A DNA stretch of 64,000 nt. Source: Cinnamomum chago (Eukaryota > Streptophyta > Magnoliopsida > Laurales > Lauraceae). Every line of letters starts with the position of its first letter. Within the stretch, counting starts at the first letter, position 1. The notes below the pieces were generated by a model, which was not told the DNA's origin, made no database searches, and was given only the letters and a program-made list of their open reading frames with translations. Of the stretch, positions 1,665 to 63,135 are shown one piece after another. Location: NCBI GenBank assembly GCA_038049695.1, contig CP142452.1:94805501-94869500 (forward strand), written 5' to 3'. The position numbers and the translations under genes were made by a program.

Positions 1665-1954
1665 AGGGCTTGTTTCTTTTATGGAATTCAAGGAATTCCT
1701 ATATGAAAATTTTCTGAATTCTCAGATATAGTGGAATTCATAAATGCTCCATTGGATTTTTCCACCAAAATGCAAAGAGGGTGAAATTCTTGAATTCTCA
1801 AAATTCATTTGGGACCTTTCATGTGGCTAGAATTTAGAATTGCTAGTAAAGAAACATGGCACTTGGAGATTCTAGGAGATAAAATATCAAATCATGTCTA
1901 CAAATTTTCAACAGGATGAATCTCTGGCAGAAATTCCACAAAAGAAATAGAGTC
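1665..1954. mobile_element. MITE candidate, Tourist/PIF-Harbinger-like
   Basis: A 290-bp segment starts AGGGCTTGTTTCTTTTATGG and ends with a diverged inverted copy (the reverse complement starts GACTCTATTTCTTTTGTGG). It is flanked by TTA on both sides (1662-1664 and 1955-1957), the 3-bp target typical of PIF/Harbinger-derived MITEs. It has no coding capacity. The terminal match is imperfect and the 3-bp duplication could be chance, so the family call is tentative. Confidence 0.42.
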
Positions 1955-1957
1955 TTA

Positions 1958-3749: not shown

Positions 3750-3954
3750 CACTACACCAAAAATCGGAAATTGGAACGGAAAAGCGTTCCTAATCCTTCC
3801 GTTCCTAATCCGTTAAAGTGTTCCAATTTCCGTTCCAATTTGGATTAGGAACGGTTGGTACCAAATTGGAACGGAAATTGGAACACTTTAACGGATTAGG
3901 AACGGAAGGATTAGGAACGCTTTTCCGTTCCAATTTCCGATTTTTGGTGTAGTG
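3750..3954. mobile_element. CACTA-type foldback MITE
   Basis: This 205-bp element begins CACTACACCAAAAATCGG and ends with the inverted copy of the same sequence (CGATTTTTGGTGTAGTG). It is flanked by a perfect 3-bp duplication AAT (3747-3749 and 3955-3957). CACTA at the tip and a 3-bp target duplication are hallmarks of CACTA (En/Spm) elements. The two arms match base for base for about 94 bp around a loop of about 17 bp, so nearly the whole element is one hairpin. It carries no transposase and would need an autonomous relative to move. The perfect arms suggest a recent insertion. Confidence 0.9.
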
Positions 3955-3957
3955 AAT

Positions 3958-6900
3958 GTGAAGTTATTATAAACACGAGCACAAAGTCACTCCATGCTTG
4001 TATCATTTAGGTAAGTGGAGCCTCCACCATTTCCTCAATTTAGTGGTGGGGGCGCCATGTGAATTTGACCATAAGGACCGGCACGCAAATATTACATCAT
4101 ATCGTGTGGTTGAGGCTCAACTCAATTATAATTTTATTTATTACCATGCGGATGGCGTTCACGGCCTATTTCGTTCATTTGGATACATGAGCACAAAGTA
4201 ATAAATACCATTTGATTTGGATAGGCCTACGAACACAACATTGTTGTTCTTCGTAAGAAAATAAATCAATAGCCTCCAATTAGAAAGGTTCGTTAAATGG
4301 GTGGATTCATTTGTGTCTTTTTGGAAACTTTATATGTAAAATAAAGTGGAGTAAAGTATCAAAATAATAAAGAATAAAATATAAGTGAGTTATGATAATA
4401 TTTTATCTTTAGTTGTTTGATAAAAAATCTTTTCAACTTTTTTTTAAAAAGTGGGTATTTTTTTTGTCTTTTAGTGGAAAAAAGATATTGTTTTTTAACT
4501 TTTTTTTTTTTTAAAAAAGAGGAGATTTTGAAAATGTTTAATTTTAATTTGACCATTTGTCTAAAAATTGGAGGCTTTACTTCACTCCACTCTACTAGTG
4601 AAGTTCCCAAACAATGGCAGAGCATATAGAAATTATCTGGTACATACCTTTTTTTTCTTTCTCTCTCTTTCAATGAACATCTCATAATGGGGTCCAATTA
4701 ATCACCCATCCAATTGGCCCCCTTGAATTACATGCATCCTTATTTTTATGCCCATCTAAATAGATTGCATCGTTGGATTGAGGGTTAAACTTTTTAAGTG
4801 ATGAAACATAGTGGGCCACTGATCAAGGTTCAGAAGATCAGGTAGGCTCATAATTCAAAGTATCATTTTTAAAACCTATCGTGAATTTTTCACTAGTTCA
4901 TTTTTTATTTGGTAGAAAATTCTCACTATATATTTAACTAATGAATGTATTAGAACCAACGAGTTCAATTATATGGAAACAACTTTGATAAATTATATAG
5001 AATTTTTAAAAAAATCTTTAAACACTGATTAGACAAATTAATTATGAAAAACACATAATTGACTGGTAAGGTGCAATACTTATTTTTTAACAGAATTACT
5101 CTTGTAGCGATATTAGTAGCCACGTAACACCCATTTTGCATATATTCTGATCTTTTTGTTTTTTCCGTCTCTTTTTTCAATGGACTCTCTAAAGTCTAAA
5201 CATCGAAGGCTAAGAGAGGGAAATGTTTGGAAGATATGAATTGCACCAAGATAATGTTTTTATGTGATAGTTCAGTCCTTGGCCGTTATGGGTCCAGATT
5301 CTAGAACCATTTTCTGTATCTACTTCTCATATTTTGATCATCTTTCTCAGGGACTATCTGTAAAGTTGGGGGACTGGCAGTCTTGCATTTAGGATGTCCT
5401 CTATATTTAGTGATGGCTAGTGCCCATGTGGACAAACCCATCCCTTGACTCCTGTGGAGGATAACCAAGCTAGCTAGAACCTTCCACATTGACACTTTTG
5501 AGTGTTGATATATGATCATGGTTTGTCCAAGACAGAATCACAGTGGCCCCACTTGTATTAGCTGACTAGTAGATATCCAGGAACAAAGGTCCTAATTATT
5601 AATCCTAATTAAAATAGATCTTGCAACTCAAGAGAACTACCCCCATGCTTCACACCCCCTAACCACCTAGCCGCACGCACATAAACACTAACTTATTGGA
5701 GACAATTACCCAAATGACAGATTCGATGCGTATATATCCCTTCCAAACATGCTTTCCTTCTCTTAATCTTTGATATTTAGAGATTCCTTCATTGAGAAAG
5801 TAGACGGAGAAACAATAAGATTGGTTTTGTTGGTTGGGAAGGATATTTGCAAAATGGGTGTCATGTGGCTAATGATATCGCTATGCAGTTAAAGTTATCA
5901 TTACGAGGGTAATTCTGTATAAAAAAAAAGTATTGCACCCTAATCCATCAATTCTGCATTTTCATTATCAATTTATCTAATTAGTATTTACGGTTAATTT
6001 TTCTGTAAGAATCCCAATTATATATAATTACAAAATATAATATTAGATTTCAAAGGCATCCAAATTATGTAACTATATAAATGTTTCATGTCCATGGTTC
6101 CTATTAGATAAATGAATTTAAGACTTTTGACTTGGAGTTGGAATAGTGAAATGTTTGGATCGAAGTTGGAAAAGGTCGTTGGGATTGCATTTCTTCAGAC
6201 TTAAGTTAGCTAATTGAGACTGCATAGATGAAGAATGGTTACGTATAGTTTCGAACCAAGTGTATTCTTAATTTCTTATTCTCTCTCTCACACACACATT
6301 ATCATTTTTTAAAATAAATTTTTAGCCGCTATTTTTAATTTTGACCATCTCATTATAATTGAAATAAAAATATTAATAGTTTAATTTTTTTTATAAGTTT
6401 AAAATTATGAATTAGACGGGCATGTTTTGCATTTAAAATTATTTTAAGCAGTTTAGATTCAAGAACGTGGGTGCCACTAATTGATTTAAAGGGATGTGAA
6501 TGTTAGGTCCCAACAAGTGGGCTGCACTGTAAGTTAGTGAGCCAAGCATTGACCAATCACAAGTACACCTTAATTGCGTGTGGGAATGCCCTGAGCCCAA
6601 GCCCGGATGAAACCTGAATTTCCAGGTCCTTAATTACCTGCACCCTAATTAAAAATCTGAGCCTTGACCCTTGACCCTTGACCCATGACCCAAGACCAAG
6701 TCTGATTTGAAGAGTTTTGGTAATATATGGATATTTGGCTTGTTACATTGTTACATCCAAGCTCAATTTGGATACCTCAGGCTGAAGTCTGAGAACCAGC
6801 TGAACTCCAATTGGGCTTCAAAACCCAGCATAGGCCCAAATACGGCCAGGCCTAATAGCGTTCTGATGCTAGCAGGAGCATCTAAGCACAAGCTTGGTCA

Positions 6901-7709: not shown

Positions 7710-13134
<5,425 letters not shown>

Positions 13135-29539: not shown

Positions 29540-29935
29540 CTCAAATAATTCAGTTAAGTTTATTTCAAAACACGGAAATAAATTTGAGTAGACACAAATA
29601 AATTTAAAAATACACAAATAAAATAAAAAATCACAAATAGATTTCATAAAACGCAAAGAAATTTGCCAAACAACTCAGACAAATTTATTCAAAAACTCAA
29701 TTAAAAATTTCAAAACAGAGATAAATTTGTCATAAACTTAGATTGATTTTTCAGAAACTCAAATAAAGATAAATTTACCAAAACTCAGATAAAAATAAAT
29801 TTGCTAAAAACTCAAATAAATTTGTCAAAAACTCAGATAAATTATCTGAGTTTTTATCTAGGTTATCAGAGTTTTTGTGAAATTTGTCTGAATTCTTGGC
29901 AAATTTATTTGAGTTCTTGGACAATCATCTGAACA
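29540..29935. repeat. Inverted array 1 of a ~21-bp unit
   Basis: Degenerate copies of a unit close to AACTCAGATAAATTTGCCAAA run in one direction, then flip to the reverse complement at a palindromic centre near 29850 (ACTCAGATAAATTATCTGAGT). The whole could fold into an imperfect hairpin. The same unit recurs in the array at 30497-30690. Confidence 0.75.
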
Positions 29936-30496: not shown

Positions 30497-30690
30497 CTTG
30501 CCAAAACTCAAATAAAGATAAATTTGCCAAAAACTCAGATAAATTGAGTTTTTGGCAAATTTATCAGAGTTTCTGTAAAATTTGTCTGAGTTATTGGCAA
30601 ATTTATCAGAGTTTCTGTAAAATTTGTCTGAGTTATTGGCAAATTTATTTGAGTTTCTTAAAAACTCTGATAAATTATCTAAACTCATAT
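30497..30690. repeat. Inverted array 2 of the same unit, with exact 42-bp repeats
   Basis: Two forward units precede a centre near 30540. The reversed units after it form an exact 42-bp double unit starting at 30552 and 30594, with a third partial copy at 30636. The sequence matches array 1 about 600 bp to the left, and a short forward remnant occurs near 30800-30830. Open frames with repeated Asn-Ser-Asp-Lys-Phe come from the repeat and are probably not coding. Confidence 0.8.
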
Positions 30691-43800: not shown

Positions 43801-46800
43801 TCATCCAGTCACCAACTGGATACTCTATTTACCTAACTTCAGTCTTCTAAAGTACAAAGGGGAAACCTCTTATCTGGCCAGAAATATGATCAAGAGGAAG
43901 AAAACTATTGAAAACCACACTAGGTTGCAAGAAAAGAGAAGCCAACTCATTTGCAGAGATGTCTGCAGGCAGATTCTCTAGAAAGAAAGAAATTGAATCA
44001 CACCCCACAATCTACAATACCAAGTTCCACGTTTTCAAATCACTTCATCCCTTCTTCCTCCACCTTGCTAACTATTTGTTTAACTGTTGAATTTGACCAT
44101 GGTTGCAGAGATAAGCGAGGAAATGACAAGAAATTGACAGACAACAGCATAAGAAGAATGTTATGCCTACCAAATTTAATTTTAGTGGTTGCCTGTAAGC
44201 TAAAAGAAATCAGGAAGCGCATGAATGACTACTAAATTATTGAATATCTAGTCATAAATAATTGCAGCACGCCAGTTGTGAAAGACATATATAACATTAA
44301 TAAAACAGGAGGCAGTTTACTCATACCACAACATTTTCTCCATGTTGAAGGATTGGTGCTGGAACATAAAGGTTACATTGTGGTCCACGTGACTGCAAAT
44401 ATTCATCCAATGAATAGAAAAGGCAATGAAAGATTAACAATGAGTTGAGACTTGAGAGAAGCATAAATAATAACATGACTAATTAAATTTAACAAGCTGT
44501 TAGTTGTACCGGCCAAAATCTTCCAATATTAAAATTGTTCACAAAAGCAATCCCTTTATTCCAGCCACTGAACGAAATGAATGTATCCTTGACCTGGTCT
44601 ATTGAGTCAATGTTGAAATGACCTTCATATAATCCTGGTTCCCGGAAGCTAGTCTCTGTAAGTTAAAATCAGACATCAATGTCATCATCATCATAATTCA
44701 TGCCTCCATGCAAGCATGTCGCATGAGATACCCACAAGCAATCCTCCTTGCATATATGGCCAACAAAAAAACCCCAAAGTTGGAATCAACAATTCCCCTC
44801 TCTTGCACAACATATGAAAATTGAGAGAGGACAGATGCAAGAGAGGAAATTTATTTGGAGTGCAATGAAAATTGAATTGGACAACTCACTCTGGTAGCCA
44901 GGATTTTCTAATACACATCTTCAAGCAAAATGGCCAAAGCTTTGCCCCTCCCAAATGTCTCATTCATAATTTAACTTGTCCTTGACCACATATGGGAAGC
45001 TATAAGAGTCCCGAGTTCAAACTTTAATTAGCAAATCCAAATCACTCTACTTCAGGGGGCAGGAACAGAGGGGCAGTCCAAAATTCAAATTCCACAGATG
45101 TGGAAAGGCATGACTTATAGGCAGGTCATATAGTCAATAGACATGACAGAGATTTGATTGACTTGATCTTGACTTCGCTTTCAAAAGTTTCTAATCTTTT
45201 GAGAAATTTTATGACTGCTCTGCTCACTAGTAAGCAGACTCAACTTGTTTTAATGGTTACATGAATACCACGAATTATCTACAAGGAACAATTTTTATTT
45301 TTTTTTGGGGGGGTTTTGAATGGTATAGTGTGATTATTATTTTCATTCGTGTGTTAATGAAAATCCTGGCAAAAGCTTTAATAACTAAAGCCAATGCTCC
45401 AGATTACCAAACCCCACGCATGCAGAACCTTCAGCAATGAGTGCAGGCCATGAAAAGATGACAAATGTAACCAACACCATTTCATGTGCATGTAAGGCAA
45501 ATGAAAATAGAAAAGGGGGATGGCAGTCCCTATGAAGAGCAATGCCATGGTCACTATCTTAAATTCGCACCTTAGCATCTCCAATTTTCCTACAGGAGAG
45601 TTTTTGACTTCTTATGCATACATCATTGATAACAAATGTAAACCAACAGCCGTAGAATGTACATGTGAGGCAAAAAGAAAATGGAAGAGTGACTACAATC
45701 CCTATGAATAGCAATGTCATGGTCACTATCTTAAATTCTCACCTTAGCCTTCTCCTACGGGAGAGTTTTTGACTTCTTACGCATGAATTATTGAGACTAG
45801 AAAATATTTCCCTTACATTTTTTGACCTTTTCTGCTCCATATGTTTGTCTGCTGTAACATAAATGGTTTTGTTCATCTGAAACTGGGAAATGCGATGGTT
45901 CCTGCTGCTATGGAATATAATGACACAAAGTTTGTGGTGGCATAAGTTGCCCTCAATGACTAGGGTTTTCAAGGTCACAAAGACAAGTCAGGTCATATGC
46001 TAAAAAGTAGAACACAACTCGGCCACTAGTTTCATTTTATTTTACACAAACCATGCATCAAAATTTTAATATTTGAAAGAAGCAATTAATAAACAAAAAG
46101 GAAAAAGTTAAAGATGCATTGGGAATGTAGAGTCCATGGAAGTTTTGAAAGAAGTCTTCGCACCTATGGAGTCCTCAACTTGAACGACTGGTTTGGCTTT
46201 CACCAGCTTGCTCAGATTGTGAAAGGAAACAGGAAACATCTTCCACTGATGAAGAATGGTGCCATCCAGGATAACAGAAGACAAAATACCCTGAACATAA
46301 AACCACAACAACCAATCAGAAACATATATGAAGACAATTTCCCAATCTCAATTTGGTTGGTGATGCACTTCCACACAAAGAGGCTAGTATTAATTTCTGA
46401 CAAGAAAACATGATCATTGAAATTATTTTCTACAATCAACCTAAGCAGAAGCTCATCAAAGGAAAACATCCATAAAACCATGATCGAACAATTTGAATGG
46501 CAAAGAGATTGCATGTCCTGCACATATAGGGAAAGGATAGCAAAGAACACGGTATGATATACGAACCCTGGGGTGGGGGTTGAAGAGGTTGGGCTGGTAC
46601 GACAAAAGGAAATACAATAAAAGAAAAGACAATTCTATATTTCTTTTCCCATGTTGCATTTTTTCCCGGATTCGAGTTAGATCTTCTTCTACACAAAATT
46701 GTAAAAAAGAAAAGAAAAGGAAAGAAAAGAGTTGCATTGAGACAATGCCGAAAAACAGGCAAGGCATAGTCACAGAGGGTCATCATCAATTGTTAAAGTT

Positions 46801-49800
46801 ACAAAATTAGTCAAATCACGTGAAAGAATGAGGAGAGAAGAGAAGGAAGAAGAGAATCATGAAAGGATAGTCAAATATGTATTTCGACCAAACCTATACT
46901 TTATTCATATACCAATAAGAACTTGAAAAGGGAAAAGACTAAAACCTATACTTCATTCATATACCAATAAGAATTGCCACTTGATTATCATCAATTCACC
47001 ATGCAATTGCACAATAAGCCCAACAGCGACTCCAAAATTGTAAACATTGTCTTAATCCAAGGAGCTCACAGGCCCCAACTCAGCTTTTGCGGCAAAAAGA
47101 GCTACAACATTTTGCTTCAACCTATTAAATTTAAACCCACAAACACGAAGTAACCTATGGAGCAGAATATTGGCCAATCAAGAAGCAACACATGCACAAA
47201 ATGGGCACAACAGAGATGAGAACGATGAGATGTGTTGTAAAACTATGAAAAATAGAATTAGAAATGAGTGCTTTAGGGAGAATTTAGGGTGGCATCAATA
47301 AATGATAAATTAAGAGAGACTCACTGGAGATGGTTTCGACCTATCCAATGCAGGCCAACAACTGCGCAGTTGAGGAAAAGTTTGCCTACGTAAGTTGACC
47401 TCACCAAGGGAAACAAGTAAGCCACGGGACATGGATGGAGTTGTCAGGTTAGATCTGAATAAGTGCCTATCCAAGAATTTGGCTCGGAATAGATTGAAAT
47501 GAAGAAGTAGAATCCATGTAGCCAACCCAACAGAAATGATCGCTTCAGGGAGAATTTAGGGTAGCATCAATTAAGTGATAAATTAAGAGAGATTCATTGG
47601 TGATGGATTGGACTTATCTAACGCAGGTCAACAATTGCGCAATGGATGAAAAGTTTGTCTATGTAGGTTGATGACTCACCAAGGGAAATAAGTAAGCCAG
47701 GGGACATGGATGAAGTAGTGAGATTAGAGTTGAAGAAGTGCAACCTATCCAAGAATTTGGCTCAAAATAGATTGAAATGAAGAAGTAGCACCCATGTAGC
47801 CAACCCAACACATTTGAGCCAAGGCTTTGATGATGATGATGATGAAAAAACACAAAGTAGCCTGAAATCAAACTCCAATTACTGACAACCTGTGCAATCC
47901 ATCAGTGAACAATTCAACATCAGCAAGCCTATCTTAGAATATTTAAGTCCTTTTCCTAGAGATGAATTCAAATACCTCAGAATTCCTTTGTATGGAGCAC
48001 AAAAAGAATGCATAAGCTGGCTTACCACTCCTACTGCATAAGAAATGCCGGTGTAGTAGCAGCAAAGTATGTAATACGCCAACAATCTCTAAAACCTTCA
48101 TACATCTTATAGGAGCCCTCCTTCCATCATATGTGGCAAATGATTAGCCTTAATGGATGAATCTGTGGGCTCTTTTAAGAGAACCGGTCCATTTCTTGAA
48201 TGACTGCAGATTGGAGTCTAATAATTAAATATATATCTCGATATTCTGTTCATGCTGGCAGCTTTTTTTTTAAAGAAACGATGATATATATTAAAAAGAG
48301 AAAGATGCAGGCTATTACAATAAACTGAACAAAAAGATAGATGGTACAAGAGAGATATACCACACTCCAAACAAGCTACATAACAAAAGCATTAAGATTA
48401 CATAAGTGATCAACCCCTTGCTTTGCTAGAATATCTGCTAGACCATTGGCGGACCTACCCACAAGTTGAAATGAAACCTGAGTCAAAGAAGCTAAGTATT
48501 TGATCTCCTTTAGAAGAAACTGCATTTTTCGAAAGGACTTCACCCAAAATACTGCATTGAAAGAATCACACTCCACTAATTGGTTTTGTTGAAATGAATG
48601 ACAATAAACACAAAGAACTTCCAAAATAACCAACACTTTCGCCTCATTAAGATATTTAACCCCCGCCTTTTCAGAAAACATATGCAACACCTCTCTCCTT
48701 TGTGATTTCTAAGAATGCCACCAATGCCCGCTGACCTCGACTTACCACGAGCTACTCCAACCACATTAAACTTTAAAACTCCATATGAAGGGAAACACCA
48801 AGTTTACTTCTTTTCCTCTTTTTTAAGCTCCCAATGTCAAACATGCTCCCCAATTATGCAAAATGTTATCTATCTTGATATCATTAAACTCCTTCCTTAC
48901 ACTAGCCCATTTGCAATCTCAAAGACACCATAGAAAGAAGGGCTTCCCATAGTAGATCCTTCCCATTAAACATTATAAATAGTTTTTTCAAAGCTGTTGC
49001 TTTTCGAATTGACTGGTTTTCAGATGAGATGAGATCACCTAATGTCATCTTGACCAGATGAGCAACACCACTTACTGAGAAACCTGAATCACTCATGATT
49101 TTGCGTCAACAATAAGGGTATCCTTGACATAGCTGGTCCCAAGCCCGGACAAAGGAGGAGGGTTGTGCGTTAGGTAGCCGACAGCCAGCACAATACTCAG
49201 TCGGATTTCTTTATGGATTTGAGACCTAATGAAATTTCGTGGGGGCATCCCCTACTTAGCGACACGCTGTATGGTCCGAGTACAGTGATAAGTGAGCAAG
49301 GACCGCTGCATCGGCGCCTGGGTGCAGTGCTAAATAGGAAAGGGTCCTCACACTTTGGACGAGTGTGGGGGGTAAGGAAGCTAGTCCAAAATAGAAGGTT
49401 GAGATTAGGTACTTGGAACATTGGGAGCTTAACTGGGAAACTTATGGAAGTGGTGGATGTAATAATATGTAAACAAGGGAGAGGAAGAAGAAAAATCACA
49501 GTGGGAGAAGGTCGTGCCAACACAGAGCATCGACTATCATATTTATATTGATATGATGCCTTAATCAAGGCTCTAATTAAGTAAAGATTACAAAATAGAT
49601 ACAAATCAGAATAACAAAAGAATGGAAAGAATCAATTATATCCTATACATAGAAGGAGAGAAATTAGGGACTAAATCTAATCATGTACATATTTGTGTAT
49701 ATCCCATGAGTGGGCTTGGGACATGGGCTGGGCCTGCTGGGCCTGTTATCTTCTACACTCCCCCTCAAATTGATGTGGTAAGTTTGAAAACATCAATTTG

Positions 49801-52800
49801 CAAGTTAGATCATGATGACGCTGTCTGGGAAGTGCTTTGGTGAAGATATCCGCCAACTGGTTGAAAGAAGATACATGAGGCAGAGTTATCTTCTCGGTAA
49901 CAACATGTTGACGGATGAAGTGACAGTCAATCTCGATGTGCTTTGTTCTTTCATGGAAGACCGGGTTGTTGGCAATTCTGGTAGCACTGGTATTGTCCCC
50001 ATGGAGAGGTGTGGAACTACCAACAAGAATACCCAATTCACACAGAAGGCGGCGGAGCCAGATAATTTCAGCACTGGCGGAGGACATCGCCCGATATTCT
50101 GCCTCAGCAGAAGACTTTGAGACAGTGGTTTGCTTCTTGCACTTCCATGAAATCAGAGATTTTCCAAGAAACATACACCAGCCAGTGGTAGACCTCCGAG
50201 AGTCCGGACAGCCAGCCCAGTCAGCATCCGCATAAGCTGATAAGTGCAGAGAAGTATCAGAAGGGAAAAAGAGACCATGATGAAGAGTTCCTTTAACATA
50301 GCGGAGGATGCGTAAAGCAGCAGCAAGGTGTGGTTTGTGGGGATTGCTAACAAACTGACTTACGGTGTGAACTGCATGAGAAATATCCGGCCGAGTCATA
50401 GTTAAGTAGAGCAAACTACCAACTATCCGCCGGAAAACAGATGGATCATCCAGGAGAGTGCCATCATTGGAACTGAGTTTGCTGTTCAATTCCAGAGGCG
50501 TATCGAAAGTGTGAGCATCATCAAGCCTGGCTGACGTGATCAAATCTTGCGCATATTTGCGTTGAAGGACCCTAATGCCGGATTTGTTACACACAAACTC
50601 AAGCCCCAGAAAGTAGGTAAGAGGACCAAGATCCTTCATTCTGAAGTGGCGAGTAAGGTGGTGTTTGAGATCTGTAATGCCGGCAGTATCATTTCCACTG
50701 ATAATCATATCATCAACATAGACCAAGAGGAATGTGTAGCCCTTTGATGTCCTTCTTATGAAGAGGGAACTATCAGAGTGACTCTGACGAAATCCGGCTT
50801 GAAGGATTGCGGCCCGGAACTTATCGAACCAAGCCCTGGGAGCTTGTTTAAGCCCATAGAGAGCTTTCCTCAATTTGCACACATGCTTTAGAGGACAAGC
50901 ATATCCTGGGGGAGGTTTTAAATAAACAGTCTCGCGCAAGTCCCCATGTAGAAAAGCATTTTTGACGTCCATTTGCCATAGAGGCCAATTGCGGGCTGCT
51001 GCGACACAAAGAAGAGTACGAACGGTTGTCATTTTGGCCACCGGTGCAAATGTTTCCTCATAGTCAATTCCATATTCCTGTTTATATCCCTGTGCAACCA
51101 ATCTGGCTTTGTAACGATCAAGGCTCCCATCAGAGTGGACTTTGATAGAGTATATCCATTTGCTGCCAATCACAGAGGCTCCATCCGGGGCCGGTACCAA
51201 TTCCCATGTTCGGTTTGCTTCAAGAGCCACTAATTCCTCGGTCATAGCATCCTGCCAGTAAGCAATCTTTGAGGCCTGTGAATATGAAGTGGGTATGGGA
51301 GTACTATCTAAGGAAGTAAGAAGAGCAGGAAAACCATAGCGGTTAGGGGCAACAGAAGGACGACTAGAGCGTCGGAGAGAAATGGTGCTATCAGAAGGAG
51401 TGTCATTACCTGAAGATGCAGAAGGCGGCGCTGGGAAAGAATCAGGAGAGGGAGTCGCCAGAGGAGGGACTTTGTTCCGCCGGACATAGACTTTGGGAAG
51501 AGGTGATGGAGACTCAAACTCCGAGAATTGTGGCAAATAAGATACAGCAATAGGATGACTATCCAAATGTAAAGAAAAGAAGGGAATATGTTCCAAGAAA
51601 ATTACATTACGAGAGATGCGCATGCATTTTTCTAATGGATCATAACACAAAAATCCTTTATGCTCATTACTGTAACCCAAAAAGATGCATTTAGCAGCCT
51701 GTGGAGATAACTTTGTGCGCTCAGTTGGAGGAAGATGAACAAAACACAAGCAACCAAAAACACGTAAGTGAGAGTATGAAGGGGTTTGACCAAAGAGAAC
51801 TTCATAAGGAGTAGTCTTTCCTAGAACAGTGCTAGGAAGACGGTTGATAAGATACACAGCGGTCTGTGCAGCATCACACCAAAATTTGGGAGGGACTAAG
51901 GATGCAATCAACAGAGTCCGAACAGTTTCAAGAATATGTCTGTTCTTTCTTTCCGCAATCCCATTTTGCTGAGGAGTATGCGGACAAGATTTTTGGTGAA
52001 GAATTCCTTTATCAGAAAGAAAGGTAGAGAATTCATGAGACATGTACTCTCCACCGGAATCTGATCTAAGAATTTTGATTTCTGTCTGAAATTGGGTGTG
52101 GACCATGTTATAAAATTTTTGAAAGATAGAGAAGACTTCAGATTTCATGCGCATAAAGTAAATCCAAGTATGACGAGAATGGTCATCAATAAAAGTCACA
52201 TAGTATTTAAATCCTGTCCTACTCAAGGTAGGAGCAATGCCCCAAACATCTGAGTGAATAATGTCAAATGATGCCAAAGCACGAGCATGATGAACAGGAA
52301 AAGGCAAAATATGACTTTTACTTAGGCAACAAGTTTCACACTTCAATTGAGATAAAGAAGACATCATTTTATTATCAATAGTAGAATCCAAACAACCAAA
52401 TTTAAACAATGAAAGCAAAAACGCATTATTCAAATGACCAAGACGTTTATGCCAAACAGTCCACAATGTATTGAAATTAGAAGAAGAAGCAAGGAAAGAA
52501 TGATGTCCAATGTCCAGCAAGAACAGGCGCCCATGTTTACTCCCCGTCGCGATCACCTTCCCAGTTTGCCGCTCCTGTATAACACAACCAAAGGAAGAAA
52601 AGTGAACAAGATAGCCATCATCTATAAGTTGTCCTACAGAAAGTAGATTGGCTGATAATCTGGGAACAAAGTAAATATTGGGAAGGGTGATGGACTGGCC
52701 AGAAACACAAGATAAAGTAATGGTACCAACTCCCGAAATGAGTAGTTGATCCCCATTAGCAGTGGTTATTTTCTCTTTTCCAAGGTAACGGTGGGAATCT

Positions 52801-55800
52801 GTAAAGCTATGTTCTACAGATGTCATGTGATTGGAGGCTCCTGAATCTAAAAACCATGTGGAAGAGGTAACAGGAGAGGAAAAAGAAGCAGAGGAATGAA
52901 AACAGGATATGCTATATGAGAATGAGAGTGATACCGACCGCCAGAAAAGCCCATTGACGCATATGCAGAGGTAACCGTGCTCTGGATCAATTCTTGAATT
53001 TGAGCAGGAGTCATGGATACAGCCCCAGATGAAGTGTTTCCTGCATCAGATGACGGTACTTGAGCCTGGAATGCAGAAGGAAGATTCTGTCTTGGCAGAT
53101 TGGAGGGGAGCTTTTTAGGCTGCGTCTCATTCCTTCGCTGGAGGCTGCGACAGTCATCAATAAGATGACCAGACCTCTTGCAGTAACGACAAACCAACTT
53201 CTTGCGGCAATTCTTGGCAATATGTCCAAAGCCTTTGCATTCATAGCATTGAGTGAGCTTCTGATTTGGGGTTGATAGAAGAGCAGAGTCAGCCGGAAGG
53301 GGTGCAAGGAAGGCCTTTGGTTCTTCAAGAATAGCCCGTTGGGAGGTGAGACGAAGTTCTTCGCGAAGTACTTCTTGAAAGCAGGTATCAAGATTAGCCG
53401 ACAGTTCGCGGTTCATGAGGGCAGACCGAACTGATTCAAATTCTGGTCGGAGATTCATAAGGAACTGGCTAATGTGAGTTTCCTCTTGGAGTTTAAGAGC
53501 CTCGGAGAGAAAGCCAGGAGAGACTGTCTGAATCAACATGGAATCCCGTTCGGTCCATAAGGTGAGGAAGCCATTAAAGTATTCCTGCACAGATCGATCC
53601 CCTTGAGTAAATTTAGCAATTTCACTATCCAAGTGAAATTTCCGGGCTTTGTTGGTTTGATGGTAGACCTTCTTGAGGTGAGCCCACATATCTGCTGCTG
53701 TATTATATGCTTGAAGAGCTACGGCAAGGGAGGAATCAATGGAGTTCAGAATCCAAGTAATCACCTTGGCATTTTCCTTGGACCAGGTGGCTATGGCTTT
53801 GGAGTCTGTGGTGCTTGGAGTAGGAGGTTTTGTAACCGTTCCATCCAGATAGCCAAATAACCCCTGTCCTTCGACGAAATTCTTCAGATGGAAGGACCAG
53901 GCCATATAATTTTGCCCATTAAACTTAACGGGAATAACATCATACTTTTCCATGTTCTCAAAAGACAGTAAAAATGTATCACAGAGAAGATGTCCAACCA
54001 AAAACCCTTCGACAGATAGGGATGAAGATGACTAGACAGCAATAATCAGCAAGAGAGGCTGAATGACCGGTTCAGATGATTAATTGGAGCAATCTGATGA
54101 ACTCCAAACAAGAAAATAACCCGAGAGTGCCAAAATTAGTGCCAGACGACCACTATTTTGGTGCTGGAGTGGTCACGTGGGGCCCACAATGGGATCAAAC
54201 CAATGATCAGAGAGTACAGTCTTTTGTGGGAGACTTTTTCGTAACTTCCAGATCAGGTTGCAAGGCAAACTGATGAAAATCCGCAAAATTGAACGGATCT
54301 GATAACAATTATCTTGTAAAACTGGGAAAATACAAGTGGCAGTATATGGCCTACCTCTAATGTGCTAAAAATCCTGAAAAAATGCCCATAAATCTTGGAG
54401 AAAAGGGGTGACCACTGTGGTGGTGAGTAGTTTTGATTTCTGGATGATCGGAAGATGGCCCACCTTGGATGGTCACCTTGCAGAATGACGACAGAGATTC
54501 TACTGAGAGAGAGAGAGTCTTCAATTGCATGAGAAGAGATGGAACTAATATGGAGGGATCCCACAGTGCTCTGATACCATGTAATAATATGTAAACAAGG
54601 GAGAGGAAGAAGAAGAATCACAGTGGGAGAAGGTCGTGCCAACACAGAGCATCGACTATCATATTTATATTGATATGATGCCTTAATCAAGGCTCTAATT
54701 AAGTAAAGATTACAAAATAGATACAAATCAGAATAACAAAAGAATGGAAAGAATCAATTATATCCTATACATAGAAGGAGAGAAATTAGGGACTAAATCT
54801 AATCATGTACAAATTTGTGTATATCCCATGAGTGGGCTTGGGACATGGGCTGGGCCTGCTGGGCCTGTTATCTTCTACAGTGGATACAATGGAAAGGAGA
54901 CGAATCGCAATTGCTTGCTTGCAAGAGACAAGGTGAGTGGGACATAAAGCTAAAGAGATTGAGAGGACTGGGTATAAGTTATGGTATACGGGACTTAATA
55001 GATCGAGGAATGGGGTCGGCATAGTGCTAAGCAAGGACTTAAAGGAAGATATAGTTAGTGTAAAGCGCTGTGGAGATAGGATTATTGCAATTAAGTTAGT
55101 GTTAGGAGAAGAGATAGTGAAAGTAATTAGTGCTTATGCCCCCCAGGTGGGCTTAGGAGATGGACATAAGGAGAAGTTTTGGGAAGACTTAGAAGGAGTG
55201 CTACTAGAGATACCCAAGGCGAGATGGTCTTCATAGGAGGAGATTTGAACGGTCATGTAGGACGCAACGTAGATGGATATATAGGAGTACACGGGGGACA
55301 TAGATACGATAATAGAAATGAAGAAGGGAAGGATATTTTGGAGTTTTCAGTGGCTTATGATCTCATGGTAACTAACACCTTTTTTAGGAATAGAGAAGAG
55401 CATTTGGTGACTTATAAGAGTGGCTCCTCAAGGACACAGATTGACTTCTTCTTAACTAGGAAAAGAGACCGCTTAGCTTGGAAAGATTGCAAGGTTATAC
55501 CGGGGGAGAGCTTGACTTCCCAACATAGGTTGTTGATCATAGATGTGCAGCTACAAAGGTGGACTAAAAAAAAGAAGTCGTATTCATGCTCAAGGACTAA
55601 ATGGTGGAACTTGAAAGGTGATAAGCAACTAGCATTAAGGGAAAGAGTACTAGAGGAAGACGTTTGGGCGGTAAATAAGAGTGCAAATAATATGTGGGAT
55701 AAGGTGGCAGAGTGTATTAGGAGGGTAGGGAAAGAAGTCTTAGGAGAATCCAAAGGGGGTGCTCCGGCACAGAAAGAGGTATGGTGGTGAAGCGAGGCCA

Positions 55801-58800
55801 TCCAAGACAAGATAAGAGTTAAAAGAGAGTACTTTAAAACTTGGCAAAAGGATCGAAATGATGCGAACTTGGAGAGGTATAAAGAAGCAAAAAGAGAAAC
55901 CAAAAAGGCAGTGAGGCCAAGGCAAAGGCATTTGAGGAGCTATATAGGCGACTCGACACTAAAGAAGGCGAAAGTGAGAGATTCAAGCTTGCCAAAGCCA
56001 GAGATAGGTGGACCAAGGACTTAAACCAAGTTAAATCATAGTTGTCAAGTTCGTTTCGGACGCCGTTTCGGTTTGGTTCCAAAATGAAACATCTCGGGTT
56101 ATTCGGTCATTTCGCTTTCTAATTCGGAAATTTGTTTCGGAAAATATAAGAAAATTACATATATATATTAAAAATATATAGAAAATTTCATTCTACCAAG
56201 CATCAAAATTTTAATTTGCAAAAGATAAGGTTCAAATACATCCCCTCAAATATCACAAAATAAAGCAAAAAGTCAGCTAACTATGCATCACTGTAATAAT
56301 GATTATCACCTTCATTTGCTCCCAATTCCTCTCCTATAGGGCCACCTATTTCATCACCCCCATCAAAATCAGGGAGACCCTCTTGCACTTGTGCCGGTTG
56401 CTCCATAGTCGTCCAACCGTCGACATCCTCTATGGTCAAGAGAGGTGCTTCTTCAGCAACCCAATCCGCCAAAATATTAATATTCTCCAAACTTATTGGG
56501 TCAGAAGCAGCATTCCCAGTCCTTTTGAGCATATCCCTACAATTTACATAAGTTAATATTTTGGTATGACAATTAATATTTTGCAAAAGAATCACGTACG
56601 ATTAACATTTGATATACCTTTCACGGAGCTTCAAATTATAATGCACAAAAACTAGATCATTCAGCCTCTGATGTTCTAGCCTATTTCTCTTAGGAGAACG
56701 AATATGTTCGAAGATACTCCAATTTCTTTCACAACCACTAGCACTGATGCATTGGCTCAAAATTCGAATTGCCAATTTTTTTAACTCAGGGGTACCACTT
56801 CCAAACCGATCCCACCATTTTATTTGTAAAAAATTATATAAAATATTAAATTATATTTTATAAACTGCAGTCATATAATAAGTTAATGAAAAATAAAAGA
56901 ACTTCATTTACGTGGAGACATTTTCGCTCGATTTCGTATTGCTACTGCAGAACCGAAGTCAAAACGTGAATCTTTATAGGCATCACATTGTTTGAAAATC
57001 ATGTCCTGAGTATCAAAATCATGAACTAATTTCTCTATGACATTATTCAGACCCCTCATGACTTCACTATGCTTAGAAAAAGTAGGACTAAAGAAAAATG
57101 TTGGATTCAGATAGTATGTTGCAGCGTGTAGTGCACTGTGAAGTTGATTTTCCCACCTGCAATCGATAATCTTCCAATATAGCTGGTAGTCCTTCTTATT
57201 TTTTAACGTCTTTTGAATCACCTCTTTTGCTCGGTCCATTGCCTCGTACACATAACCCATTGCAGGCTTCTCTTCACTGTCCGCTAGACGTAGAACTACC
57301 ACCAAAGCTTCACTAACCTTCAATATATGCTCAACATCCTTCCAAAATGTGTTATTGAGTATGATTTCAGTGATCTCCATGCCAACAGGTGTACTCGAAG
57401 CATTAGATTCAACCCAAGCGGTACTTGTAAACATTTGCCTAAGCTCTTTTCTGTATTTAAAAAGGCACTGCAAGCTAATAAAATTGGTAGCAAATCTTGT
57501 GATGGCTGGTCGGATTAATTCTCTCCCATTTGTATATTCTCTTCTCATTAAATTCAATACTGATAAATGATTGTAAATGAACTTTGTGATTTTCCTTGCT
57601 GTCTCAATTGTGGATGCATTAACTGGAAACAAGTGTGGCTTTGCCATGTCCTCTAACATCAAATCTATGCAATGGGCTGCACAAGCTGTCCAATAAAAAG
57701 TCCCATATTTTTCAGCCACTCTTTTTCCCGCTGCTTTGTAAGTGGCATCATTGTCAGTTATAAATTGGACAATATTGTTAGGCCCAACAAGTAAGACAAT
57801 TTCATCAAAAATTTTAAATAGTGCATCTGAATTTTTTATAATTGGACTTGTATCAACCGACTTCAGGAACATTACCCCTTTTGGGCAATACACAAGAAAG
57901 TTAATCAATGTTCTTTGCCTTTCATCTGTCCACCCATCAGCCATGACAGAGCACCCAGTTTCACTCCAACATGATTTATAATGCTCCATGAAAGCATTAA
58001 CTTTCAGTACAATTTTTCCCAAAATCTTTCCACGAAGGTCATGATATGATGGCATCTTGTAACCTGGCCCCACTGCTGGGATTCCATCAGCCATTGCTTG
58101 ACAAAATTTTGATCTTACTACATTAAATGGGAGATTTGCATCAAACCAAAAACGGCCAACAGCCAAATCAGTTGCATCCTTCAGTTCCTTTGTTGCCAAT
58201 GTTGATTTGATGCCTAGCTGAGATCCAGGACTTGTTCGTGGCGCAAAGAAATTCGACATTGGAGGTTGGGAAGTATTTGACACACCCCTCCTTTTGTTTT
58301 GGGTAGATATTTGAGAGACCTTCTCTTTACCCTTTCCACTTGTTGTGGTGGGGGTAATTGGATTTGTAAATGGACCTACTTCTTCTACCTCAACATCATC
58401 TTCATTTGCATCACCCCTTGGAGTTCCATAAGGGTTTCCAATCTCCTCATTTAATTGCCTTTTCTTTCCTCTATCCTTTTTACCTTCTAAAACAAGTCTT
58501 TCCATTTGCCATTTGACATCACCTGGCACATTTTTACAAGGTGCAATATCTACCCCCCCAAAGGTGTTCTTTAAGTCTAGTGATCCTACCACCTTTTATG
58601 ACTTTTTTACAAAAACGACAAATTACATATTTGTTGTTGGTTGGATCCACATAACCATAAGCCCATGCAAGGTCATCAGATCTAATACTGGCAGCAGCAG
58701 ATGATATGGGTGTGCTATCACTCATTTTCAAATTAAAAAATCAATCTTCCAAATCTAATGCAATAGCAACACACAAATGATAGACAAGTACAATAGTAAG

Positions 58801-61800
58801 TTTAATGTTTCAGCTAGTAATAGGAAATATTTTAAAATTATATAAGTTATAAAAATAATCACTGCACATTTTATTCACTCAAATGGTTTCAGCGAATAAA
58901 AAAAATGATCACTGCACATTTCAGTGATCAAATGGGTGTGCAGATTAAGATTTTTATAAATTTAAAACTGGTGGTGAGGAATTGCAATATTAAAAAATGA
59001 TCACTTCACATATCAGTGATCAAATGGTTCCAACGAATAAAAGGGATGGTGGGCCTCACTTCCCGTGGTCAAATAAAATGAGTTTCAGTGAATAAAAGGG
59101 GTGGGCCTCACTTCCTGTAACTCATGAGGACCATCATTTGATTCAACTGTTCACCATAAAAAGCATCCCAAAAATAAAATGAGTTTCAATGAATAAAAGG
59201 GGTGGGCCTCACTTACTGTAACTCATGAGGACCATCAATCGATTCAACCGTTCACCATAAAAAGCATCCCAAAAATAAAATGAGTTTCAATGAATAAAAG
59301 GGGTGGGCCTCACTTCCTGTAACTCATCAGGACCATCAATTGATTCAACTGTTCACCATAAAAAGCATCCCAAAAATAAAATGAGTTTCAATGAATAAAA
59401 GGGGTGGGCCTCACTTACTGTAACTCATGAAGACCATCAATCGATTCAACCGTTCACCATAAAAAGCATCCCAAAAATAAAATGAGTTTCAATGAATAAA
59501 AGGGGTGGGCCTCACTTCATGTAACCCATCAGGACCATCAATTGATTCAACTGTTCACCATAAAAGGCATCCCTGACTTGCCCCTTTTTCGTAATACCCT
59601 TTATAAACAGAAACTCCCAAAGTCCCAAATGGAACCCTATCGATAGGAAGTGTAAATGGCGACGCTGAAATGGAAAGAGAGGGAAAGATCAATGAATACT
59701 TGTGGATCTGCGATATTTTCTTGCAAAGAAATCAGGCAAAGCTCGCGAGGGAGATCAGGCAAAGCTCTTCGCAAAGAAATCCAATCGACAGCCTTGGCGA
59801 GGAGAAATCCAATCGACGGCTCGGTGAGGGAGAAATCCAATATTTGAGCCTTCAATGGAGAGATATTCTGAGGAGATTGAAAGGGGAATAGGGAAGATCT
59901 TGTGGCTGATACCAATTTATAGATCCTTACATGCATATTTGAGCCCAATTTATAGATCGAAGGGGATTTTGCATGCTGCATGCCGGTGAACAAGAGGAAA
60001 ACGAGGCGTTTCTGCTTGATAACAGGTATTTCGAATTTATTTCGCTTGGATTCGCTCAAATGCTCAACTACATTGATTTTAATTTTTTTTCTGTAACGGT
60101 CTTCCCCTGATTCGCCCGAATCTGTTGATTCGGGTAATGTTCGTCCGAATTTAAGGGTCTTCTCCACGAAACACTATATTTCGGCGACTATTAACGAAAT
60201 ATGAACCGAATATTTTAAGGCGAGACTTTCGATTCGGTTATGGTTTTGAAACGAAAGAAATCGGATGTTTCATCCGAATCGAAACGAATTTGACAACTAT
60301 GAGTTAAATGCATTAAGGATGAGGATGAAAAGGTATTAGTAAAGGAAGAGGAGATAAAGGGGCGTTGGAAGAGCTACTTCTACAAGTTATTTAACGAAAG
60401 CAGTAGTAGTGACATACAATTGGGGCAGCTTACCATTTCTACGGAAGAATCGAATCATATGTTTTATAGGAGAATCAATAGGGAAGAAATTAAAGAAGTA
60501 TTGAAAAGGATGAAGAATGGGAAAGCAGTTGGGTCAGATGGTATCCCTATTGAGGTTTGGAGGTGCTTGGGGTAGGATGGCATAAGTTGGTTGACAAAGC
60601 TTTTTAATGTAGTGCTAAAGAGCAAGAAGATGCCTAATGCATGGAGAAAAAAGTATTCTTATACCCATATACAAGAACAAAGGAGATATTCAGAACTGTG
60701 CGAACTATCGCAGGATTAAATTGATGAGTCATACGATGAAATTATGGGGGAGAGTTATTGAGAGAAGACTAAGAAGAACAACAAACGTTTCAAAGAATCA
60801 ATTTGGTTTCATGCTTGGAAGATCAACCATGAAGGCTATCTTTCTCTTGAGAAGGTTAATGGAACAGTATAGAAAAAGTCAGAGAGATTTACATATGATG
60901 TTCATTGACTTGAAGAAGGCCTATGACCGGGTTCCTAGGGAGATTCTATGGAGAGTACTGGAAAAAAAAAGAGTGTGTGTCGCATATATTGAGGCGATAA
61001 AGAATATGTATGATAGAGTCGTAACATCTATAAGAACGACTGGCGAAGAGACTACAGAGTTTCTTATCACGATTGGTCTACACCAAGGCTCAGCGTTAAG
61101 CCCGTACTTGTTTGCCCTAGTTATGGATGAGATTACAAGACATTCAGGATGAGGTGCCGTGGTGTATGCTATTTGCAGATGACATTGTTTTAGTGGATGA
61201 GACAAGAGAATGAGTGAATGCTAAGCTAGAATTATGACGGAAAACGTTAGAGACAAAAGGGTTTAGGCTAAGTCGATGCAAGACGGAATATATGGAATGC
61301 AAGTTTAGTCAAAGTAAGACACCTGGTAACATAGAAGTAAGTTTGGGCACACAAAAGATTGCAGAAAAAGAAAACTTTAGGTACCTTGGATCTATGGTGC
61401 AACAGGATGGAGAGATTGATACTGATGTAAGTCACAGGATTCAGGCCGGGTGGACCAAATGGAGGAGTGCTTAGGGAGTCTTGTGTGATTGGAAAGTCCC
61501 CCTCAAGGTTAAAGGAAAGTATTATAAGGTGGCGGTATGTCCAGCGTTGTTATATGGATCAGAGTGTTGGGCAGTAAAGCATAATCATGTTAAGAAGATG
61601 GAAGTTGCGGAGATGAGAATGCTAAGATGGATGTGCGGGATCACAAGGAGAGATAGGATTAGGAATAAGGAAATTAGGAGCAGAGTAGGAATAGCACCGA
61701 TTGAAGATAAAATGAGAGAAAATCGACTGAGATGGTTCGACTATGTTAGAAGGCGCCCAACGGAGGCACCTGTTAAAAGGTGTGAAAGCATGGAGATTGC

Positions 61801-63135
61801 CAAGAGTAGGAGAGGGCAAGGGAGACCCAAGAGAAGTTGGAAAGAAACTATTATACATGACCTTGCCTACACGGATCTAACGGAGGACATGGTCCTAAAC
61901 AGATTTGATTAGCGTCGTCAAATCCATATAGCCGACCCCACCTAGTGGGAAAATGCTTGGTTTGGTGGTTTGGTTTTAATAAGGGTTCAATCAACACAAA
62001 TATTAACAAGAAACAAATCAAACAGGTCACATGACCCCTTCAATTACTTAAACAGGTCACACAATCTTCCCGCAGCCTCGAGGAAGTCACATGACCTTCC
62101 TACACAAATAAAACAGGTCATGTGGCCCTTGAGTGTCTAATAGGAAGCTTACTTTTAACATACATCCCGCCATCAGTAACAAATACAGGAGAAACAACTC
62201 AGAATAACTCACCAGGCAGATAAATGCATATAGAATCAGTTATAAGGTCTGAGAGACACAGAAAGAAAGAAACATCAAAATTCACTAAATTTGGTTCTTT
62301 AGAAGCAAAATGAGAAGCAGGGTTGCTCCAAAAGTCGGACAAATCTATTCTAGTGGAAAATCAAAAAATCAAACTGGATTGTTACGGTTTTCTTTGGTGC
62401 TGATATTTCATCCTCAGATGTCAGACCATCTAAAAATTGAACAAAAATTGCCAAGCAGATTGATGTCAAGCAAACCATGTACCTTTCTTGTGAAATCTCT
62501 AGCACAGGATGTATGAAAGTTTTGTACTATTACTGACATCAAACCTGGGTTAGGGAGAAGATCATCCTATGACTGAAGCACTGAGACGAAGTTATAAATG
62601 TAGTAAATTAAATCATCAGATATATATGAAGAAAGAGATAATAAGAAGAGGAGAGAAGAAACGGAAAGGGAAGGAAAAAAAAAAAAAAACAAAACAAAAC
62701 AAAACAAAAACAGAAAGAGAAAGAGAGTCCTGAAAGCGGAAGTCAAATATGAGTTTCAGCTAAACCCTATATTTTATTAACATGCTCCTTGGAAAAACAA
62801 GAATTGTAGAGAGTAAAATACCCTTGCACACCCACTATACCTATAAAATAAAAAGAATATAGACGTTATACTAATTTCTACATTTATTGCAGCATTTTGA
62901 TATCTAAAAGCTAATGGCACCAAGGAAAAAAGAAAAGCAATTTCCAGGGTTCTGAGAATTGCATGTGGAAGTAACAATAATTAGGAGTGATTCAGAAAAG
63001 TAAAGTATTTTTTAAGTTCTGAGCATTGACCACTAGTAACAGAACTCCAATGTCATCAAAATTAGTGCTGATATGGCAAATTACCTTCCTGTCAAATATA
63101 TACTGCCCATAATTAACACGGCCCAAGTTTTCTAC
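40891..63135 (-). CDS. BGAL17: Beta-galactosidase 17-like (GH35), 3-prime part, gene continues off the window
   Basis: Five C-terminal exons on the minus strand: 63085-63135 (VENLGRVNYGQYIFDRK), 46164-46290 (GILSSVILDGTILHQWKMFP), 44510-44655 (EPGLYEGHFNIDS, FISFSGWNKGIAFVNNFNIG), 44328-44393 (SRGPQCNLYVPAPILQHG) and 40891-41013 (ELEASNPDLLVNFVDGPDF to stop). They match the order and phase expected for the non-catalytic C-terminal part of plant BGAL17, a GH35 enzyme acting on terminal beta-galactosyl residues. The catalytic TIM barrel lies beyond the right edge. The first intron seen is 16.8 kb and holds a nested transposon stack. The 44328-44393 exon carries one extra base (GGGAGAAAATG where the family frame needs GGAGAAAATG). 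That shifts the frame unless an acceptor 10 bases downstream is used in the last exon. The donor of the 46290 exon (G|GTGCGA) fits the frame but makes that loop shorter than usual. Confidence 0.82.
41800..44080 (-). mobile_element. L1-type LINE remnant (ORF1-like) in a beta-galactosidase intron
   Basis: Lies in the intron between the exons ending at 44328 and starting at 41013. Read on the minus strand, the right part encodes an RRM-like segment (ENLPADISANELASLF, then ISGQIRGF), as in the first ORF of plant L1 LINEs. The left end reads GTGCAATAAAAGTTTTCAT followed by an A-run, a typical L1 tail. Frames between are short and broken and no reverse transcriptase is seen, so it looks internally deleted and old. 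The ends are approximate. Confidence 0.42.
45461..45796. repeat. Diverged 171-bp tandem duplication
   Basis: Two head-to-tail copies, 45461-45631 and 45632-45796, both start ACAAATGTA and share CATGGTCACTATCTTAAATT and GGAGAGTTTTTGACTTCTTA. They differ at many positions and by small gaps, so the duplication is not recent. It lies in the intron between beta-galactosidase exons. Confidence 0.8.
46840..46975. repeat. Small tandem duplication, also related to 62700-62800
   Basis: The phrase AAACCTATACTT(T/C)ATTCATATACC followed by AATAAGAA occurs twice about 51 bases apart. The left part (GTCAAATATG then TTTCG and ACCAAACCTATACTTTATT) is clearly related to a stretch at about 62700-62800 on the far side of the nested insertion, in the same orientation. 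Confidence 0.6.
47262..47846 (+). mobile_element. Two tandem RTE LINE 3-prime ends
   Basis: Two diverged copies of an RTE-type LINE tail, about 47262-47530 and 47533-47846, lie head to tail. Each contains GGGAGAATTTAGGGT, then CCTATCCAAGAATTTGGCTC, then CCATGTAGCCAACCCAACA. Only the second ends in the (GAT)n tail (near 47829-47846). The sequence codes, in decayed form, for the end of the LINE protein where related elements carry an RWFGHV-like motif. Both are truncated and inactive. Confidence 0.75.
48265..49105 (-). mobile_element. L1-type LINE fragment with RNase H domain
   Basis: Minus-strand frames encode the RNase H-like domain found at the end of ORF2 in plant L1 LINEs: AGIGGILRNHKGE near 48720, then VECDSFNAVFWV, and SFQLVGRSANGLADILAKQG near 48440. 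It is broken into at least two frames. The 3-prime end carries an A-rich tail near 48265-48275. Sequence toward 49105 fits the linker upstream of RNase H. The fragment stops about where the RTE LINE's target duplication begins (49111). Confidence 0.75.
49458..49757 (-). repeat. Copia LTR, 3-prime copy
   Basis: A 300-bp LTR starting TGTAATAATATG on the plus strand and ending TTATCTTCTACA. It adjoins the polypurine tract at about 49758-49770 (GGGGGAG on the minus strand), which marks it as the downstream LTR of a minus-strand element. Confidence 0.95.
49746..52826 (-). other. Copia pol region (integrase, reverse transcriptase, RNase H)
   Basis: A long open region of about 1,026 codons. In order it shows a GAG-pre-integrase zinc motif, an integrase core (HSDVWG, FIDDHSR, SDSGGEY), reverse transcriptase (ARLVAQGYKQ, YVDDMIISG) and RNase H (ADADWAGCPDSRRSTTG, SSAEAEYRAM). 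The protease signature (DSGAS) lies just upstream, near the boundary with the gag region. Domain order with integrase before reverse transcriptase is diagnostic of copia rather than gypsy. Confidence 0.92.
52847..54001 (-). other. Copia gag region
   Basis: A fossil gag-type region of about 380 codons. It begins with the usual copia gag core (KFNGQNYMAWS, then a UBN2-like helical part) and ends with two zinc knuckles of the CCHC type (CYECKGFGHIAKNC and CRYCKRSGHLIDDC). In live relatives this product forms the nucleocapsid of virus-like particles. Confidence 0.9.
54567..54579 (-). other. Copia primer-binding site (initiator-Met tRNA)
   Basis: On the minus strand the sequence directly after the 5-prime LTR is TGGTATCAGAGCA, the standard plant copia primer site complementary to the 3-prime end of initiator-Met tRNA. 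Confidence 0.93.
54580..54879 (-). repeat. Copia LTR, 5-prime copy
   Basis: A 300-bp LTR identical to 49458-49757 except at two positions. It adjoins the primer-binding site at 54567-54579, so it is the upstream LTR and would carry the element's promoter. Confidence 0.95.
54885..56028 (+). pseudogene. RTE LINE endonuclease segment (decayed)
   Basis: The part of the LINE between the two inserts encodes most of the AP-type endonuclease and the linker to reverse transcriptase. Visible pieces are IAIACLQETR, VVKVISAYAP-like text split across frames, GGDLNGHVGRNVDGY near 55240, SGSSRTQIDFFLT near 55430 and SLTSQHRLLIIDV near 55520. These are the expected endonuclease catalytic blocks (GGDLN, D and SQHR-type). 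The longest clean frame runs 55179-55790 and ends at a stop inside the linker. A frame change is needed upstream, so no working protein is made. Confidence 0.8.
56281..58731 (-). CDS. hAT transposase (BED zinc finger, DUF659, dimerisation domain)
   Basis: Pieces on the minus strand run in this order. The BED-type zinc finger at about 58534-58731 reads ICRFCKKVIKGGRITRLKEH. The main body at 56904-58592 is DUF659 with GCSVMADGWTDERQRTLINF, ITDNDATYKAAGKRV and WTACAAHCIDLMLEDM. The hAT dimerisation domain at about 56618-56817 reads GTPELKKLAIRILS and SGCERNWSIFEHIRSPKRNR. An acidic tail exon at 56281-56536 starts DMLKRTGNAASDPISLENIN. The junction from dimerisation exon to tail is a clean GT-AG intron. 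The BED piece and main body are offset by one base at a run of seven G near 58553-58559. The acceptor before the WWDRFG exon is not clear. The gene is therefore probably damaged, but only lightly. The enzyme would cut and paste elements with matching ends. Confidence 0.88.
59071..59573. repeat. 101-bp tandem array, five units, two alternating variants
   Basis: Units start at about 59071, 59170, 59271, 59372 and 59473, each beginning AAATAAAATGAGTTTCA and ending AAAAAGCATCCC. Units 1, 3 and 5 read TGATTCAACTG, while units 2 and 4 read CACTTACTG and CGATTCAACCG. This ABABA order implies a 202-bp higher-order unit. Looser relatives occur at about 58870-59065. The array sits upstream of the transposase start, inside the hAT. 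Confidence 0.9.
59574..60301. other. hAT subterminal region with TTCGG/CGAAT motifs
   Basis: Between the tandem array and the right terminus, motifs such as ATTCGG, TTTCGG, CGAAT and TTCGC recur in both orientations, densest in the last 250 bp. A frame on the minus strand (59637-60167) encodes no known domain and is probably chance. Confidence 0.6.
60310..61912 (+). pseudogene. RTE LINE reverse transcriptase and C-terminal segment (decayed)
   Basis: The LINE resumes directly after the hAT target duplication. Open stretches 60637-61152 and 61481-61912 carry NYRRIKLMSHTMKLWGRVIE, FGFMLGRSTMKAIFLLRRLM, MMFIDLKKAYDRVPRE (domain A Asp), LHQGSALSPYLFALVMDEI, then FADDIVLVDE (domain C, two Asp) in a shifted frame. 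Further along are RYLGSMVQQDGEIDTDVSHR, LLYGSECWAVK, MLRWMCG and RENRLRWFDYVRRRPTEAPV, the usual C-terminal end of this group. At least three interruptions are visible. Confidence 0.85.
61987..63084. other. Beta-galactosidase intron sequence right of the LINE
   Basis: Intronic DNA with several degenerate copies of AACAGGTCACATGACC (about 62021-62130), a poly(A)/(AAAAC)n run near 62675-62709, and a segment at about 62700-62800 related to 46840-46930. No gene of its own is recognised. Confidence 0.55.

Follow-up and report, generated by a model that had tools for sequence, protein, structure and literature searches.

Within the window, as we call the whole stretch of 64,000 nt analysed here (C2:94805501–94869500), a single LINE (49120–61977) is split in three by two complete elements, one a Ty1/copia retrotransposon and the other a hAT transposon. 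The assembly searched comprises 1.06 Gb in 14 contigs. The boundaries of the three elements are read from the sequence, and the 9-bp target duplication AATAAGGGT brackets the entire stack on the plus strand at 49111–49119 and 61978–61986. All six duplication arms (AATAAGGGT, GTGGA and AGTTAAAT) lie to the base where the preliminary description had placed them, and removal of the two inserts leaves, as also claimed there, a contiguous LINE of about 3.16 kb (338 + 1152 + 1668 = 3158 bp). That description spoke of a three-level stack. Three elements are indeed nested, but the levels are two, with one LINE hosting two separate inserts side by side. We regard the stack as almost certainly the product of three independent, ordinary transposition events. 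The nesting is unusually clean; its mechanism is ordinary and the event is of an already known kind.

The host LINE lies on the plus strand. Piece 1, the 5' part (49120–49457, 338 bp), falls short of the family 5' end by about 16 nt and closes with GTGGA. Piece 2 (54885–56036, 1152 bp) corresponds to the endonuclease domain region of the family copy L014 and closes with AGTTAAAT. Piece 3 (60310–61977, 1668 bp) contains the reverse transcriptase, found by Pfam as RVT_1, and the 3' tail. The endonuclease of the window copy is weak (Exo_endo_phos_2, E = 0.024, below the Pfam cut-off), and L014 gives Exo_endo_phos with E = 7.7e-8. Two further family copies, L036 and L030, match RVT_1, and one, L027, has no Pfam match. 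Both the AP-type endonuclease and the reverse transcriptase of an RTE LINE are found, the former via the family copy L014. Domains, termini and duplications support the element identities proposed earlier (RTE LINE, copia and hAT); for the LINE the name RTE-like is based on domains, size and tail and is meant in this qualified sense. An older LINE 3' tail, akin to that of the stack's LINE (63.6% over 236 aligned positions), is seen at 47156–47817, where it overlaps a 273-bp unit present in two tandem copies.

The Ty1/copia element (49458–54879, 5422 bp) is complete and lies on the minus strand. Elements of this type are characterized by LTRs of the form TG...CA, a tRNA primer site, a polypurine tract and a 5-bp duplication, and all four are present here. 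Its 3' LTR (49458–49757) and 5' LTR (54580–54879) are 300 bp each and differ by 2 mismatches. The sequence GAGGGGGAG adjoins the 3' LTR (49758–49766) and is taken by us as the polypurine tract, and TGGTATCAGAGC adjoins the 5' LTR (54568–54579) and presumably acts as the primer binding site. The gag open frame (52847–54031) encodes Retrotran_gag_2 and a zinc knuckle, and the pol open frame (49746–53045) encodes GAG-pre-integrase, rve, SH3 and RVT_2. With rve at residues 261–358 and RVT_2 at 611–851 of the same frame, the integrase precedes the reverse transcriptase, as in Ty1/copia. The target duplication GTGGA is found on the plus strand at 49453–49457 and 54880–54884. Nine other copies of the family were attempted and both ends were found for seven, six of which have an exact 5-bp duplication; the remaining one (L071/L072) shows no matching 5-bp duplication. 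The LTR pairs of six other complete copies carry 0, 0, 0, 1, 1 and 1 mismatches, from which it follows that the family moved recently. A relative of the stack's copia is itself host to a copy of the same LINE family on C9 (L010 with L112, about 29494480–29499008). The flanks of L010 match copia bases 1888–3035 (85.7% over 1155 bp) and 3019–3098 (92.5% over 80 bp). Thus, nesting between the two families goes both ways.

The hAT transposon (56037–60301, 4265 bp) is also on the minus strand. Terminal inverted repeats and an 8-bp duplication are features of hAT elements, and both are found in the stack's element. Its terminal inverted repeat CATAGTTGTCAA is exact over 12 bp, with 17 of the first 18 bases alike, and the duplication AGTTAAAT occupies 56029–56036 and 60302–60309 on the plus strand. 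Pfam identifies a hAT transposase with its C-terminal dimerisation region, namely a BED zinc finger frame (zf-BED, 58534–58740), an open frame with DUF659 (56904–58595) and Dimer_Tnp_hAT (56602–56850), all on the minus strand. A tandem repeat with five copies of a 101-bp unit is located at 59071–59573. Among the other hAT copies examined at both ends an 8-bp duplication is present in 15 of 17 (6/7 and 9/10), and the other two have no matching duplications; L099 and L110, represented by right ends only, are left out of this count. The BED frame is not in phase with that of DUF659. The two are joined in three of seven other copies and unjoined in the stack's copy, which is therefore probably inactive, as judged from its reading frames.

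Uninterrupted paralogous copies of the LINE demonstrate that the LINE arrived first, in agreement with the preliminary description. A genome search with the LINE, copia and hAT sequences, the check proposed there, found other copies, uninterrupted LINE sites and family-typical duplications. In particular, the LINE flanks of each insert were joined and searched genome-wide, with 278 first-look candidates for the copia joint and 500 for the hAT joint; of the 40 matches scored per joint, the best 20 were fetched. At the copia joint all 20 fetched LINE copies are unbroken and contain the target once, with GTGGA exact in every one. The hAT joint is likewise unbroken with a single target in 20 of 20; AGTTAAAT is exact in 18 and altered by a single substitution in 2. 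The two sets have one LINE copy in common, located on C7 (L025, L046). Since LINE copies run through both joints with the target present once, both inserts landed in a pre-existing LINE.

The joined outer flanks of the stack match the assembly only at their own two places and reveal no other copy of the LINE empty site. The stack is unique in the assembly at the sensitivity of this search, and the idea that the whole stack occurs again as a segmental duplication was rejected on the same result. The left LINE–copia junction is crossed by none of the other 42 matches listed (scoring covered 40 of the 2687 candidates). Each of the three elements is repetitive, so it is conceivable that mis-joined repeats in the assembly make them merely look nested. 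However, exact duplications of 5, 8 and 9 bp at exact element ends are not expected from a mis-join, all 20 LINE copies at each joint show the pieces continuing one another to the base, and the window is free of N with outer flanks that match nowhere else. An assembly artefact is thus exceedingly improbable, and the stack is treated below as a genuine product of transposition.

The 5' junction of the LINE deserves a closer description. The common family 5' end is reached by 17 of the 20 LINE copies, which begin about 16 nt farther upstream than the window copy; in the other three the match begins farther in. This family 5' end runs into GGGTATCC, or into GTATCC in one copy, and L019, among the 17, has GGGTATTC. 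The left AATAAGGGT ends in GGGT (49116–49119), four bases that also belong to the family 5' end, while the bases preceding them in the window differ from the family. These four bases are therefore both target and LINE. One could accordingly let the LINE begin at GGGT and reduce the target duplication to AATAA (5 bp), a reading for which the match of GGGT with the LINE family speaks. But the right flank also reads AATAAGGGT, all nine bases were in the pre-insertion site either way, and the choice between these readings is one of naming; we consider the shorter duplication quite unlikely. The 9-bp duplication can be compared with four copies that have the family 5' end and for which the 3' end was also fetched, where the longest flank common to both ends measures 21, 20, 19 and 10 bp. 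For L010, the copy with 20 bp, the copia matches of the two flanks have 17 bp in common (copia bases 3019–3035), which is the true duplication, and the other 3 bases are those in common with the LINE start. As the untruncated copies L010 and L026 likewise have 2–3 bases common to the target and the LINE 5' end, microhomology by itself is not diagnostic. According to the introduction of PMC4245944, 5'-truncated human L1 copies often display microhomology at the 5' junction, and short duplications (1–9 bp) are commoner among them. By analogy, the window LINE, as one copy, appears to fit this pattern of truncation, microhomology and short duplication, and its junction would add one more case to the described link between the three.

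The preliminary description treated only the position of the LINE in the order of events as fixed, and it was right not to decide between copia and hAT as the earlier insert. Nesting proves that the LINE came first, and the divergences agree with it. To compare the elements, we counted private substitutions, those of the window copy only, against copies covering at least 90% of the stretch (at least 50% for the right part of hAT); such counts are upper bounds and depend on the copies sampled. Pooled values are 43/2790 (1.5%) for the LINE, 38/3261 (1.2%) for hAT and 10/2300 (0.4%) for copia. Within the LINE, 2/338 sites are private in the left part (19 of 20 copies usable), 19/1152 in the middle (10 of 20 usable; 17/1001 with another set, 20 of 20) and 22/1300 in the right part (15 of 20). 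For hAT the left part gives 20/1988 (all 19 copies usable) and the right part 18/1273, where only four of eight copies are usable, the dropped four being the subfamily B described below. The copia count is based on 6 of 7 copies. By number of private substitutions the window copia ranks first of 7 and the window hAT, in its left part, second of 20. The copia LTR pair has 2 mismatches over 300 sites, i.e. 2/600, with a 95% interval of 0.04–1.2% per site. LINE and hAT do not differ significantly (Fisher, p = 0.22).

On divergence, the only basis for ordering the two inserts, the evidence leans weakly towards hAT having inserted before copia. Private substitutions are more frequent in hAT than in copia, both for the left part (20/1988 vs 10/2300, Fisher, p = 0.028) and for the pooled parts (38/3261, p = 0.003), the latter value being inflated, as are the private counts of the right part, by comparison with 4 copies only. 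The low mismatch numbers of the other complete LTR pairs (0 or 1 in six of six) also speak against an earlier copia insertion. The opposite order, copia before hAT, is unlikely but has several observations in its favour. With only two LTR differences the age interval of copia is wide. It takes in the hAT value, and a Fisher test between the left part of hAT and the LTR pair yields p = 0.13. The private divergence of hAT is an upper bound on its age. Furthermore, the window copia has the most private substitutions of the 7 copies compared, and its 2 LTR differences exceed those of the six other complete pairs. We retain hAT before copia as the weakly favoured order.

The least ordinary feature of the locus is the split of the hAT family into two subfamilies. 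Its family loci are L052–L054, L059, L060, L062 and L068 with L091 and L093–L098, and the comparison includes four A copies, the window copy among them, and four B copies. In the transposase half (56037–58595) A copies diverge from one another by 2.3% and B copies by 1.4%, and the two subfamilies are 2.6% apart. In the other half (58787–60301), where the alignment is gappy, the divergence amounts to 3.7% within A, 2.3% within B and 28.0% between them. The tandem units differ as well, with about 100 bp in A (86–112 bp as called by the program) and 74 or 81 bp in B. A shared transposase half next to another half that is about 28% different suggests a module swap. In the DUF659 frame, A and B differ by 3.4% at third, 2.6% at first and 2.3% at second codon positions. 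As third positions are hardly more diverged than first and second ones, protein constraint by itself cannot explain the likeness, and an exchange of the coding half can explain the pattern. To be noted, the divergence between A and B is already raised at 58587–58786 (5–14% per 50 bases) and exceeds 25% from 58787 onwards, so the break is not perfectly sharp. We think it somewhat probable that the transposase half (56037 to about 58780) was exchanged between the subfamilies by recombination or gene conversion. If so, a transposase module moving between backbones could restore mobility to old hAT ends, and the nested stack would date such a copy relatively, after the LINE and probably before copia. 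The left end of the stack's hAT is 99% like one B copy and its right end 96% like A, and a mosaic peculiar to this copy was considered. It was rejected because A and B are about equally close over nearly the whole transposase half, and the split is family-wide.

Several other features are observed in the window. A cytokinin dehydrogenase-like gene is represented by exon-like frames on the minus strand at 9170–9550 and 12106–13134 (Pfam: Cytokin-bind, E = 1.8e-23; FAD_binding_4, E = 1e-12). Inverted repeats with short loops at 3729–3975 (115-nt arms, 92%) and 11836–11962 (62-nt arms, 95%) are possibly MITE-like or foldback elements. Two tandem clusters of units of about 21 bp (29576–29920 and 30545–30663), roughly 0.7 kb apart, have one repeat family in common in direct orientation. 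A position of the stack in an intron of a Serinc-like gene was also considered, and it was dropped: the Pfam match at 46436–46792 is weak, below the cut-off, and absent from the 18 Serinc matches of the genome.

The history of the stack may be reconstructed from established knowledge of these families, which is the basis for the enzymes proposed here and for a junction made through microhomology. Target-primed reverse transcription of LINE RNA would place a copy at a site that read AATAAGGGT. This copy would stop about 16 nt before the 5' end of the element and be joined via the four matching bases GGGT, giving the 9-bp duplication. Later, the hAT transposase would paste the 4.27-kb DNA transposon into the LINE with an 8-bp duplication, and the copia integrase would put the 5.4-kb LTR element elsewhere in it with a 5-bp duplication. 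At this locus three mechanisms of integration have each left a footprint, and the record is tidy. It can be used for teaching, for benchmarking nested-repeat annotation and for relative dating. Knowledge of transposition is left unchanged by it, and only the apparently half-swapped hAT family is possibly of interest to the transposon specialist.

Compared with known systems, the LINE resembles RTE-type elements in its length of 3.2 kb, the endonuclease and reverse transcriptase domains of its family, a short 3' repeat tail and a duplication of the type left by target-primed reverse transcription. It differs in that the window copy is slightly 5'-truncated, with 9 bp duplicated where three of the four untruncated copies have common flanks of 19–21 bp. 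The copia element agrees with Ty1/copia in its TG...CA LTRs, primer site, purine tract, gag, integrase before reverse transcriptase and 5-bp duplication; in the stack's copy the gag and pol open frames overlap (within 49746–54031) but the frames differ. The hAT element has the inverted repeats, 8-bp duplication, BED finger, DUF659 and hAT dimerisation region of the Ac/hobo/Tam3 superfamily, whereas its family consists of two subfamilies with one half only in common. PMC6911290 describes nested LTR retrotransposons as common in plants and gives 1491 such LTR pairs for 12 plant genomes. As in those pairs, a younger element lies within an older one and the host element resumes on both sides. LTR elements within LTR elements were counted there, whereas in the present stack a LINE hosts inserts of two classes; the mechanism is no different.
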